A stretch of 64,000 nucleotides of DNA, taken from assembly GCF_003151075.1 (NCBI RefSeq), contig NZ_CP029482.1, positions 6,230,001 through 6,294,000 of the forward strand, given 5' to 3'. The notes below the pieces were generated by a model that ran no database searches, was not told the DNA's origin, and saw only the letters and a list, made by a program, of their open reading frames with translations. The position numbers and the translations under genes are program-made. Positions 2,609-60,795 of the stretch are shown in pieces (within the stretch, counting starts at the first letter, position 1; every line of letters begins with the position of its first letter). The stretch is from Pseudomonas sp. 31-12. Lineage in GTDB: Bacteria; Pseudomonadota; Gammaproteobacteria; Pseudomonadales; Pseudomonadaceae.

Positions 2609-3643
2609 TTACGGCAGCATGCCGGCGTGGGACAGGCCCAAGCGCTCATCCAGCCCGAACAGAATGTTCAGGTTCTGCACCGCCTGACCCGACGCACCTT
2701 TGACCAGGTTATCGATCACCGACAAAACCACCACCAGATCACCGTCCTGCGGACGATGCACCGCGATACGGCAAACGTTGGCACCGCGCACGCTGCGGGT
2801 TTCCGGATGGCTGCCGGCCGGCATCACGTCGACGAACGGTTCGTTGGCGTAGCGCTTTTCAAACAACGCCTGCAGATCCACCGAGCGATCCACGACAGTC
2901 GCATACAGCGTCGAATGAATGCCGCGAATCATTGGCGTCAGGTGCGGAACGAAGGTCAGACCGACGTCCTTGCCCGCTGCGCGACGCAGACCTTGGCGGA
3001 TTTCCGGCAAGTGACGGTGACCTTTGACGGAATAGGCTTTCATGCTTTCCGACGTCTCGGAGTACAGCGAACCGACCGAAGCACCACGGCCCGCACCGCT
3101 GACACCGGATTTGCAGTCAGCGATCAAACGCGTGGTATCGGCCAGCCCGGCTTCGAGCAATGGCAGGAAACCCAATTGCGTAGCCGTTGGATAGCAACCC
3201 GGCACGGCGATCAGGCGAGCATCCTTGATCTGCTCGCGATTGACTTCCGGCAGACCGTAGACCGCTTCCTCCAGCAGCTCCGGCGCACCGTGCGGCTGGC
3301 CGTACCACTTGGCCCATTCAACCGAGTCTTGCAGGCGGAAGTCCGCCGACAGGTCGATGACCTTGGTCCCGGCCGCCAGCAATTCGCCAGCCAGCGCATG
3401 GGCAACACCGTGCGGCGTGGCGAAGAACACCACATCACAGGCGCCCAGCGTCTTGATGTCCGGAACGCTGAACGCCAGGCCGTCGTAGTGGCCTCGCAGG
3501 TTCGGGTACATGTCAGCGACGGCCAGACCGGCCTCGGATCGGGAAGTGATCACGACCACTTCAGCTTGCGGATGCTGTGCCAACAGACGCAGCAGTTCGA
3601 CACCGGTGTAACCCGTGCCGCCGACGATACCGACCTTGACCAT
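2609..3643 (-). CDS. argC: N-acetyl-gamma-glutamyl-phosphate reductase
   Basis: Third step of arginine synthesis: NADPH-dependent reduction of N-acetylglutamyl-5-phosphate to the semialdehyde. The 344-residue protein opens with the Rossmann motif GGTGYTG (residues 8-14), has the catalytic cysteine C150 in [10 protein letters not shown], and the C-terminal HLTPMIRGI segment typical of ArgC. A strong terminator follows. It is monocistronic and divergent from hemJ. Confidence 0.96.
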
Positions 3644-58612: not shown

Positions 58613-58798
58613 TCAGACCAGCCGAACCACCAAGGCAACAGCAACAATAGTCACGAGCGCCAGCGCGGCACCGAGTCCAAACGGCAGTAGGATTGCTCGG
58701 GTCGCGATGGGGGATGGGCTACGCATGTCTTCGGCCAAGGCGGCCACGTCACGGTGTAACTGTTCAATGCTGGCTTGAATCGTAGGAGGTGTGGACAT
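58613..58798 (-). CDS. small single-span membrane protein, unknown
   Basis: 61 residues: a polar N-terminal helix (IEQLHRDVAALAEDM) and one C-terminal span (LLPFGLGAALALVTIVAVALVV) ending Arg-Leu-Val. The ATG at 58798 has AGGA nine bases before it. It has the same plan as the next gene upstream on the same strand. Function unknown; placed in the variable stretch behind the tRNA. Confidence 0.6.
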   Translation of the reverse strand: MSTPPTIQASIEQLHRDVAALAEDMRSPSPIATRAILLPFGLGAALALVTIVAVALVVRLV

Positions 58799-58923
58799 AC
58801 TGCGTCTTCCTGCAGGGATCACGGGTCACGCCTAATGCGCTAACCCTTGTTAGATAAGGTGGGCTGCTAAGCGGTAAAACTCAAGCACCTCCGATCATTG
58901 GTCGCTTCCGTGTGTTAGGGATT

Positions 58924-59118
58924 TTAAAGCTTGGACCACAATCCGACGGCGGCGACAACGGCGGTCACTAGACCGGCGCCTACTGCGAACGGATACCAAA
59001 AAGCCTCCTGCCTAAGCTTGCTTTCTTCGGCCATAAACTTGCGGGTTTCAGCAATGAATCTCCGGATTTCGACTTGAAGCTTATCGAGCTCCAGATTTTT
59101 GCGGTCATTTTGTAGCAT
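58924..59118 (-). CDS. small single-span membrane protein, unknown
   Basis: 64 residues: a strongly charged helix (KNLELDKLQVEIRRFIAETR, coiled-coil-like) followed by one span (YPFAVGAGLVTAVVAAVGLW) and a short SKL end. AGGA sits seven bases before the ATG. 125 bases upstream of the other small membrane protein. The architecture occurs in small phage- or island-borne membrane proteins, but no family is recognised. Confidence 0.65.
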   Translation of the reverse strand: MLQNDRKNLELDKLQVEIRRFIAETRKFMAEESKLRQEAFWYPFAVGAGLVTAVVAAVGLWSKL

Positions 59119-59565
59119 CAGTCATCCTGTCGGGGCTCGGGTCGCGTCCTGTGCGCTGCTCCGCGGCGGGACATGCGTTTTTTCCTGTCTGCCGTCTAGG
59201 TTATATTTTGCGCTGACGTGAGGTTATCGGATGACGTCTGCCATGGTTGTAGGCAAACTCCGAGAATTGCGTAATGGGTGCGTTTAGGCACTTTGCCGCC
59301 TTGTTGGCGTTCTCTTCGACGGGATACTCTCCGGACGTCGCTGCAAATGCAGCGATCGGGTGTGGTAACCCGGGAACCAGCGCAACAGTGCACTCATCAC
59401 GAAGATAGGCAGTTTTTTATGCCTGTGATCTCGATATGGCAGCTGTGCGTGGGACGCCTTCGGGCGTGCCGGTTTCCTTGGTTCCCGGTTTACCACCCTG
59501 CGTACAGCTGCCACCCTTTCGTGTGGTAACGAAAGTGGCAGCTCCTCGAACCCAGGAGTTATATC
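59119..59565. other. 447-base region with complex inverted repeats
   Basis: No protein gene is convincing. It holds a 17-base inverted motif pair (59362-59378 with 59480-59496), a 17-bp RNA-type stem with an internal UUCG hairpin, and the DUF3077 leader proper. Base composition is visibly poorer in GC than the core genes. It separates the divergent small-protein gene and the DUF3077 gene. Confidence 0.6.
59362..59558 (+). promoter_or_regulatory. switch-like structured leader of the DUF3077 gene
   Basis: Three segments compete: TGGCAGCT (59437), AGCTGCCA (59506), TGGCAGCT (59536). Segment 2 can pair with 1 in a 17-bp stem (59437-59453 with 59497-59513) with three G-U pairs, enclosing a five-pair ACGCC-TTCG-GGCGT hairpin. 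Or it pairs with 3, extended by CTTTCGT/ACGAAAG around loop GTGGTA. Segment 3 runs into CTCCT (59542-59546), which can cover the ribosome-binding AGGAG (59554-59558). Pairing 2-3 should thus free, and 1-2 should hide, the start site. Confidence 0.6.
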
Positions 59566-59871
59566 GTGAACAAAACAAATCCGTCCGCAATTTCAGACCT
59601 GAAAACCATCGGTTTCACCCCACTCATCTACTGCTCGGATCAGGCGTTGTTCAACGTCCGCGCCGGCGTCCCCATCGTTGATGCATTGTCACAAGCCTCC
59701 GATCTGCTGTTCCTCGCCAAATCATTTGCCGAGGACGCAGCCTACGCAAGAGACACCGACCGCCACGCCTGGGCCGCGCATTATCTGACGGCGATGGGTA
59801 AGGCGGTAATTGATGATGTGGTGAAGGTGCTTACACCAAGGCCTCCCCGGACAGCGACGGAGTCCGAGTAA
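59566..59871 (+). CDS. DUF3077 family protein
   Basis: 101 residues with the DUF3077 pattern: PLIYCSDQALFNVRAGVPIVDALSQASDLLFLAKSF and a conserved Trp/His-rich centre (RHAWAAHYLTAMGKAVIDDV). A mostly helical cytoplasmic family found in many copies in Pseudomonas, function unknown. GTG start with AGGAG seven bases upstream. Preceded by a long structured leader. Confidence 0.75.
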   Translation: MNKTNPSAISDLKTIGFTPLIYCSDQALFNVRAGVPIVDALSQASDLLFLAKSFAEDAAYARDTDRHAWAAHYLTAMGKAVIDDVVKVLTPRPPRTATESE

Positions 59872-59958: not shown

Positions 59959-60639
59959 TTATTTCCTGAATGGATCGGCATCACTACAGCTGCCAGCCCC
60001 GACGCCCAACGCCGGAATCGCCCGCACCACCCCCATCCGCTCAAGCACCTCCCTCGTCAACACACCCTCATACGTATCCGCCGCCCTGCCCCATTGCTCC
60101 ACGATACCCATGCCATCAACCAACGTCTCGCCCAACCCAATAATCGTATCGGCCAGCTGCTCAACGATTGTTTGAGTCCGTAACCACAGGCGATCCGTAA
60201 TCTCTTTCAGCTCGGCGGTTACGCGATCAGGCGAAGCCGGATCCGTATCGGGGTAGGTGATGTTACGCAGCAAGTGCCGTAACTCCCTGATTTTTGCGTA
60301 GTCCTGTTCTGCCCCAAGTTCTCCCCTCAGGATGGCGGCCGCTTTCGGCTTATCGACGCGTTTGCCGGGCGAACGCTTTGAAGCCAATGACTGCGCCATG
60401 GCGCCCGCAAAGAGGACCATCATTCGGGCTTGCAGATGCTCCTTCATTGCCTCAATCGTCGTAATTGAACGCGCCAAGGTAATGGAAGCGCCCGCTTGAT
60501 GCCTCAAGTCCATGGTCACTGTCAGGCTCACATCACCCGTTTCAAACCCCAAGACTCGGGCAACGACGTAGTGACCCATTTCGTGATTGGCAATCTGCAC
60601 TGCGTGATCCCGGACAGCGGGAGGCATGTTCTTTGTCAT
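59959..60639 (-). CDS. stand-alone M41 (FtsH-type) zinc peptidase
   Basis: 226 residues with the metal motif HEMGH at 19-23 and a third ligand candidate D113 in GAEQDYAKIRELRHLL, which matches the position and context of the third ligand of FtsH peptidase domains; LFAGAMAQSLA matches the family helix between them. No AAA ATPase domain and no membrane span are present. The ATG at 60639 follows GAGGTG. Most likely a soluble metalloprotease with partner or substrate unknown. Convergent with the DUF3077 gene; in the accessory region behind the tRNA. Confidence 0.7.
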   Translation of the reverse strand: MTKNMPPAVRDHAVQIANHEMGHYVVARVLGFETGDVSLTVTMDLRHQAGASITLARSITTIEAMKEHLQARMMVLFAGAMAQSLASKRSPGKRVDKPKAAAILRGELGAEQDYAKIRELRHLLRNITYPDTDPASPDRVTAELKEITDRLWLRTQTIVEQLADTIIGLGETLVDGMGIVEQWGRAADTYEGVLTREVLERMGVVRAIPALGVGAGSCSDADPFRK

Positions 60640-60795
60640 TTTGATCACCTCGCATCCCTCGATTTCTCATTCGACTATGACTGACAGCTGGTGTCCATCC
60701 TGTCTTCCGCGCGCCGTCTGACGTTCTCAGACATCCGCCGTGCCAGCCGTGCTGTAACATGCCAAGCCACTGATTTGTGTTGCCGGAGACGCCCC

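Follow-up and report, generated by a model that had tools for sequence, protein, structure and literature searches.

The DUF3077 gene near the end of the window (the whole 64,000-nt stretch of the Pseudomonas sp. 31-12 chromosome analysed here) is preceded by a leader in which one segment can pair with either of two others, which raises the question of what kind of RNA this leader is and what it does to the gene behind it. A sequence-only reading had taken it for a three-state switch and had known of no described RNA family of this shape. The comparison with Rfam overturned the latter statement: the leader is a C4 antisense RNA with its c4-a1b1 target, and both families were matched above their gathering scores (Table 1). 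No riboswitch was found among the window's three Rfam matches at gathering score, and a match to isrK (RF01394) at 59337-59418 reached 38.2 bits, below the cut-off of 50 for that family. The leader has the P1 stem with the P2 (UUCG) and P3 hairpins, supported by covariation, the upstream a1/b1 target, and the downstream sites a2 and b2, with b2 at the ribosome-binding site. These downstream sites are supported class-wide (z of 19.8 and 21.7); in the window module the longest Watson-Crick run is 7 at a2 and just 5 on the SD side. Against our own model R1, which was built from 50 sequences with the window C4 among them, the window C4 scored 95.9 bits.

The C4 of P1 and P7 is alike in its fold, its core of about 77 nt, the order a1, b1, c4, a2, b2 and start codon, and the distance of about 50 nt from C4 to the start. 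The P1 record is annotated with a1, b1, a 77-nt c4, a2 and b2, with 50 nt from c4 to the icd start. In the window, the GTG is separated from 59513 by 52 nt and from 59515 by 50 nt; the latter would be the mature end according to a by-eye alignment with P1, which places the mature C4 RNA at about 59438-59515. In contrast, the cargo of the P1/P7 immI operon is the icd-ant antirepressor, whereas the cargo in the window is DUF3077 and the module is chromosomal, with about 50 copies.

The segment with two partners is AGCTGCCA at 59506-59513, and its complement TGGCAGCT occurs both upstream, at 59437-59444, and downstream, at 59536-59543. Both partners claimed earlier are present, at 61 nt upstream and 22 nt downstream instead of the approximate 50 and 30 that had been given. 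The upstream pairing had been described as 17 bp long with three G-U pairs and an internal UUCG hairpin, and this is what the window contains: 59437-59453 pairs with 59497-59513, and two hairpins lie inside this stem, ACGCC-UUCG-GGCGU at 59454-59467 and another whose loop is 12 nt long. The downstream partner had been said to overlap a hairpin that masks the AGGAG of the gene; the arms CTCCT (59542-59546) and AGGAG (59554-59558) are indeed there, and the partner overlaps the 5' arm. The 149-nt piece from 59432 had a fold z of -5.1 and the 256-nt leader a fold z of -6.9, and in neither case was any of 200 dinucleotide shuffles equally stable.

Table 1. Features of the C4 module in front of the DUF3077 gene (window positions).
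Feature	Position	Strand	Basis
Candidate promoter (TTGTTG, 18 nt, TACTCT)	59301..59330	+	Read from sequence; putative
c4-a1b1 target leader (RF03163), putative upstream target or decoy of C4	59324..59376	+	Rfam, 52.8 bits, gathering cut-off 46.7
Site a1 (GTGGTAA), complements C4 junction strand 59490-59496	59362..59368	+	Sequence; class-wide own vs swapped z 17.0
Site b1 (GGGAACCA), complements C4 59479-59486 (P3 loop and flank) except one end base	59372..59379	+	Sequence; class-wide z 14.2
T-run at the place of an IsrK-type terminator	59413..59418	+	isrK match 59337-59418; predicted fold
C4 antisense RNA (RF01695)	59432..59518	+	Rfam, 86.1 bits, gathering cut-off 45
P3 loop of C4 (b' in P1), private address directed at the SD	59473..59484	+	51 distinct loops in 51 modules; own vs swapped z 21.7
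C4 junction strand (a' in P1 naming), TTACCAC	59490..59496	+	z 19.8 against the site after C4, 17.0 against the leader
Segment AGCTGCCA of the sequence-only reading, 3' arm of C4 stem	59506..59513	+	Predicted upstream pairing, P 0.91 if RNA starts at C4; downstream with leader
Site a2 hairpin (CTTTCG-TGTGGTAA-CGAAAG)	59516..59535	+	Fold P about 1; place of the annotated P1 a2
Downstream partner TGGCAGCT, overlaps 5' arm of SD hairpin	59536..59543	+	30 of 51 modules at or below 5th shuffle percentile
SD hairpin CTCCT/AGGAG, site b2 in loop and 3' arm	59542..59558	+	Predicted P 0.99 when RNA starts at C4
DUF3077 gene, GTG start, 101 aa, presumed regulated cargo	59566..59871	+	PF11275, 109 bits, cut-off 21

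A stretch like the candidate promoter also precedes the paralogs L021 and L059, and a start from this promoter would be expected at 59337, the first position of the sub-threshold isrK match. A consensus scan gave no sigma-70 match for the stretch, and we therefore regard the promoter as putative. The activity of the T-run as a terminator is doubtful because it sits in a hairpin loop. The sequence TATGG at 59435-59439 is a candidate GG site for processing by RNase P. When own halves were compared with swapped halves, coevolution was weak for both the SD hairpin (z -2.8) and the a2 hairpin (z -2.2); family-wide, own SD hairpins averaged -6.53 kcal/mol and swapped ones -5.70 kcal/mol, with 59 of 20000 swaps as low.

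Selection at the level of RNA had been claimed for this leader, and covariation bears the claim out. We aligned 50 of the genome's 55 C4 matches (excluding L032 and L066-L069), in which 94.8% of the cells are paired, 14 pairs are changed on both sides and 127 cells carry both-side changes. None of 500 shuffles, which related sequences can beat, reached the covariation score, and the slid controls agree in direction: the true partners scored 0.411, and partners slid by 1 to 3 columns at most 0.128. A second alignment, which was fitted to the model, was drawn from 79 named Pseudomonas loci that carry DUF3077 relatives and comprised 80 matches in 61 distinct rows; pairing was seen in 99.0% of its cells, and again 0 of 500 shuffles reached its score. 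The sequence-only reading had named a lack of compensatory base changes in homologous leaders as the finding that would speak against it. Such changes are present in both alignments, so this objection does not hold.

The module is not alone in its genome. The 6.73-Mb chromosome has 55 C4 matches, 52 of them above the cut-off and 24 and 31 on the two strands, which is a lower bound with 150 of 1903 first-look candidates scored. The same chromosome has 49 a1b1 matches (18 above the cut-off), and 48 of the 55 C4 matches have one 25-64 nt upstream. A start codon, in some cases set by hand, follows 46-56 nt downstream of 51 of the 55. The proteins of 51 modules were scanned (L035, L066, L067 and L069 were excluded, and some frames were chosen by rule and may be wrong, e.g., L060): 33 are DUF6124, five are DUF3077 and three are Bro-N, with the remainder being none of these. 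The genome has six DUF3077 matches, of which five follow a C4. The sixth is a weaker match at chromosome positions 2565520-2565705, inside a 372-codon open frame, with no C4.

Throughout the genus, a C4 above the cut-off was found in 137 of 149 genomes (this one included), and 91 and 33 of the 149 have at least 10 and at least 27 matches, respectively. Elsewhere in the class, a C4 above the cut-off was found in 6 of 184 genomes, in one to three copies; the copy numbers per genome are lower bounds, because at most 27 candidates per genome were scored inside the genus and at most 22 outside it. Across 40 genomes, the copy number of DUF6124 followed that of C4 (rho 0.84, with the C4 counts being lower bounds). 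Of the 80 related named DUF3077 loci, 79 have a C4, with 31 to 151 nt from its end to the matched stretch, and L129 is the sole DUF3077 locus of the 80 without one. At L070 (positions 3001-3330), an a1b1 leader is immediately followed by a DUF6124 gene, and no C4 was found in between; this is possibly a deleted module or the target of another C4. A CTACA motif recurs upstream of many modules (e.g., L017, L023, L041 and L056), and many DUF6124 modules have a long common stretch before the leader; these could be a regulator site or a trace of module spread.

In order to compare own with non-cognate targets, we used 51 of the 55 modules, with several starts set by hand; L066 and L069 are degenerate, and L035 and L067 have no usable start. 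Duplex energy was rejected as a cognate test, with the own target ranking first in 5, 7, 16 and 4 of 55 in four comparisons. The energies separated own from other targets badly, since the GC-rich ends of the stems can pair with any target rich in GC. The measure adopted was the longest Watson-Crick run in defined segments. The P3 loops are all distinct (51 of 51), and their mean longest run against their own SD was 6.90 bp compared to 3.93 bp when swapped (z 21.7), which none of 20000 swaps reached. The junction strand matched the site directly after its own C4 with a z of 19.8. On the leader side, the own match gave a z of 14.2 for the loop and 17.0 for the junction (51 modules, 20000 swaps).

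With both gene-side sites combined, in a comparison that covered the module leaders of the genome, the own gene was the best target for 47 of the 51 C4s and uniquely so for 46; an equal or better non-cognate module target was found for five C4s (L021, L031, L037, L041 and L043). A combined score of at least 12 was reached by 92.2% of own pairs vs 0 to 7% of non-cognate pairs, the 7% figure belonging to 86 ordered pairs of C4s with an alignment score of at least 0.8. When the set was thinned to 12 dissimilar modules, the own target was uniquely best in 12 of 12. The same held in Pseudomonas fluorescens FW300-N2E3, where the own target was best or tied for 26 of 27 C4s and unique for 22, and 30 loop-distinct DUF3077 modules gave a cognate pairing z of 8.7. 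The loop-SD match of the window is among the weaker ones, with a longest run of 5 where a non-cognate SD reaches 6 (the loop-leader run is 7); once the two sites are taken together, no other module target equals that of its own gene. Each of the approximately 50 modules has its own recognition words, and so most C4s address their own gene best. Taken together, these computations establish the family membership, the architecture, the covariation and the cognate specificity of the module.

The variable loops also bear on a ligand-sensing riboswitch, an explanation whose sole point in favour is that alternative pairings lie over an SD. Instead of a conserved pocket, the module has an unpaired P3 loop that is hypervariable and matches RNA targets by complementarity, and the Rfam matches of the window at gathering score include no riboswitch; we find this explanation scarcely credible. 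Our preferred reading, to which we give a probability of about 0.85, is that the locus is an antisense module of the C4 type which came from a phage, has been retained in the Pseudomonas chromosome and holds its own DUF3077 gene off. The a1b1 leader, the C4 and the gene would be made as a single transcript, from which the C4 would be cut out, as it is by RNase P in P1. The junction strand of the C4 would then pair with a2, the hairpin loop directly after the C4, and the P3 loop with the SD region (b2), and translation would be blocked both in cis and in trans. The upstream a1/b1 copy could pair with the same two stretches of the C4. In the long transcript, a1/b1 is predicted to open the C4 stem; the freed 3' arm would move to the downstream GTGGCAGCT and pull the SD hairpin apart, giving an anti-antisense ON state according to an equilibrium prediction. 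We infer for this locus transcription, processing, repression, the ON state and the action of the small protein.

The proposed ON state rests on fold predictions with and without the leader. For a window RNA that starts at the C4, the stem has a predicted probability of 0.95, and the SD hairpin masks the AGGAG with a probability of 0.99. With its own leader, which is predicted to pair with the C4 loop and junction, the stem falls from 0.95 to 0.00, the downstream pairing score rises from 0.10 to 0.99 and the predicted SD exposure goes up from 0.19 to 0.55 (to 0.31 when less of the coding sequence is included, and to 0.52 in a further fold). Over the 51 modules, the mean C4 stem probability was 0.88 when no leader was present; own leaders lowered it to 0.40 and swapped ones to 0.82, and the downstream pairing in these three settings was 0.11, 0.40 and 0.14, respectively. 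SD exposure showed no overall rise in these modules (0.38, 0.38 and 0.35), with own exceeding swapped in 33 of 51 (p 0.01). The same comparison in 77 of the 80 related modules gave 0.90, 0.44 and 0.69 for the C4 stem, 0.10, 0.46 and 0.26 for the downstream pairing, and 0.35, 0.39 and 0.34 for SD exposure. With the own leader, a stem below 0.5 is predicted in just 30 of 51 and 40 of 77 modules, so many modules keep their C4 closed. The leader is predicted to open the C4 in the window (stem from 0.97 to 0.00), but not in P1 (0.81 and 0.82).

The complementarity between the C4 3' arm and the downstream segment exceeds chance: 30 of 51 modules lie no higher than the 5th percentile of their dinucleotide shuffles, compared to 3 of 51 for a control segment. 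This pairing coevolves weakly, with a z of 2.2 to 3.8 in the 51 modules, 1.8 to 3.0 in the DUF3077 modules and 0.8, no better than swaps, in P. fluorescens FW300-N2E3. Of the three-state switch proposed earlier, the exclusive pairings are plausible, with the downstream complementarity above shuffles in 30 of 51 modules and C4 predicted to be opened by own leaders; the weak coevolution (z of 0.8 to 3.8), the flat SD exposure of the 51 paralogs and the P1 leader speak against it. We read the downstream pairing as a probable alternative pairing that is real and used by part of the family, and a mutually exclusive pairing is plausible from the predicted folds.

These predictions could be taken to favour a conformational switch in cis only, in which leader, C4 and SD region swap partners and transcription speed, a terminator or the ribosome decides the outcome. 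Own leaders do open the stem more than swapped ones (0.40 vs 0.82) with more downstream pairing (0.40 vs 0.14), the 77 related modules show the same direction, and the downstream complementarity beats shuffles in 30 of 51. However, the coevolution is strongest between the C4 loop and junction and the gene-side sites: antisense pairing with the SD region and the preceding hairpin is a far stronger signal (z about 20) than the exchange helix (z of 0.8 to 3.8). In addition, the C4 of P1 is described as trans-acting in the accounts available. We consider a switch in cis only quite unlikely.

A different division of labour is known from IsrK/orf45/anrP of Salmonella Gifsy-1 (RF01394). According to the available text of PMC4825925, that system is alike in having a leader RNA, a read-through mRNA, alternative structures over the ribosome-binding site and a stable processed downstream RNA that shares complementary sequence with the leader; in contrast, it is a single locus, whereas the cargo here is another one and the isrK score is 38.2 of 50. 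The window switch thus resembles the two-structure logic of IsrK without being identical to it. In such an arrangement, the short leader RNA would be the active regulator that turns on translation of the long transcript, and the C4 would be a by-product or an opponent. The isrK match over the leader points this way, as does a T-run of five or longer in the last 100 nt before the C4 in 44 of 80 DUF3077 modules, compared to 2.6 expected from mononucleotide shuffles, and in Gifsy-1 the short IsrK is described as raising anrP translation (PMC4825925, text as available). However, the match stays below the isrK cut-off, a T-run is found in just 16 of the 51 own-genome modules, and the T-run of the window is inside a hairpin loop. 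We think it unlikely that the leader RNA is the active regulator; such logic is nevertheless compatible with our preferred reading and does not exclude it.

The cargo and the surroundings of the modules bear on where they came from. Three of the 51 cargo proteins have matches to Bro-N and to anti-repressor PHROGs, and phrog_36471, a PHROG of unknown function, was matched by all five DUF3077 proteins. PADLOC gave no defence-family match among the 51 cargo proteins, and NCBIfam gave no convincing match for the cargo. In 50,697 phage records, DUF3077 had no match at E 0.01 and DUF6124 had one match, near the end of a record. In viral contigs of IMG/VR, seven DUF3077 and 31 DUF6124 loci were found, with a C4 upstream in 37 of the 38, and the viral fold library contains a phage protein named DUF3077. 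On plasmids, there was one DUF3077 match (40% identical) and no DUF6124 match. At least one of the IMG/VR loci, L178, looks chromosomal, and by eye a potassium-transporter-like gene adjoins it. Other modules on viral contigs lie in accessory regions with HicAB and an HTH protein (L180), Abi_2 (L181), an AAA ATPase (L182) or a RelA/SpoT-domain protein (L201), settings typical of defence or addiction hot spots. Insertion linked to tRNA genes was rejected: of the 53 modules scanned (L066 and L069 excluded), just 2 had a tRNA no more than 3 kb away, and one tmRNA was found in addition. We take the module to be a phage immunity cassette with exchanged cargo, in which the small proteins may act on repressors, on growth or against phages.

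Profile comparison of DUF3077 with DUF6124 gave a probability of 20% over 64 co-linear columns, and the predicted models of both (mean pLDDT 79.2 and 74.2; pTM 0.66 and 0.46) end in a long two-helix hairpin at a corresponding place, which is suggestive only of a remote kinship. The third cargo group (A5) showed no relation to DUF3077 or DUF6124. No solved-structure relative of the cargo was found by sequence, and the DUF3077 model had no match at E 0.001 or better in the PDB or the viral library; this search says nothing on function, because long helix hairpins match many things. In three own-genome DUF3077 modules (L016, L018 and L059), the start at the usual distance from the C4 belongs to a short ORF of 28, 38 or 34 aa, and the DUF3077 start lies 83 to 113 nt further on, a layout reminiscent of icd-ant in P1.

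The large upstream and downstream neighbours of the window module were found in 15 and 19 of the 80 related loci, respectively (flanks of at most 2 kb each), which suggests that the locus is at least partly inherited in place. Two small ORFs on the minus strand of the window, at 58613-58822 and 58924-59118, have a charged N-terminal part, a hydrophobic C-terminal end and no Pfam match, with relatives in just 3 and 2 of the 80 related loci. A protein encoded at 59959-60648 on the minus strand has weak, sub-cut-off similarity to peptidase families M50 and M41, with relatives in 19 of the 80. A decayed prophage remnant without present function would fit the phage origin of the family and the broken or degenerate modules (L035 and L067 lack a usable start, and L066 and L069 were excluded as degenerate). 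Yet structure and cognate pairings are kept despite hypervariable loops, and the C4 stands before the gene in 79 of the 80 related loci, so that we regard a mere remnant as very unlikely.

The preferred reading, an antisense module that holds its own gene off, has relatives among known systems. In one Acinetobacter baumannii genome, the available text of PMC5320573 reports 21 Group 1 C4-like sRNAs that are expressed and apparently processed. These are alike in being multi-copy, chromosomal and variable in the specificity loop; in contrast, that text names no cognate genes and leaves the targets open, whereas here 51 of 55 have a start codon and matching sites. The CI RNA of P4, with seqA and seqC, is similarly described, in the sources at hand, as a processed antisense RNA between two complementary sites of its own transcript, but acts on transcription termination; no match of this type was among the window's Rfam results, if Rfam holds that family. 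In the portions of the literature accessible, c4 and c4-a1b1 are reported in Proteobacteria and phages (Weinberg et al. 2010), isrK and C4 occur in one transcription unit in Burkholderia cenocepacia, and DUF3077 appears as a mutated pseudogene of Pseudomonas putida. No description of a Pseudomonas C4 repertoire was found in the literature searched, which was without subscription papers and supplements. The C4 family itself is already known; its multi-copy private repertoire in Pseudomonas is little-studied.

We tentatively suggest, as a possibility that we hold well short of probable, that Pseudomonas chromosomes and prophages carry a set of dozens of C4 switches, private to one another, in which every switch guards its own small protein (DUF6124, DUF3077, Bro-N or unnamed kinds), with two-part recognition words that may have been driven apart against cross-talk. 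The leader would be a built-in anti-antisense, and a matching RNA, e.g., from an invading relative, could turn a module on, which would make it a self/non-self or anti-phage sensor. C4 has been known chiefly as an immunity RNA that phages carry in one copy, and here approximately 50 are found in one chromosome, most with their own code. They are natural orthogonal antisense pairs, in which the base pairing of regulator and target can be read from coevolution, and for DUF3077 and DUF6124, both families of unknown function, C4 provides a regulator that can be put to the test.
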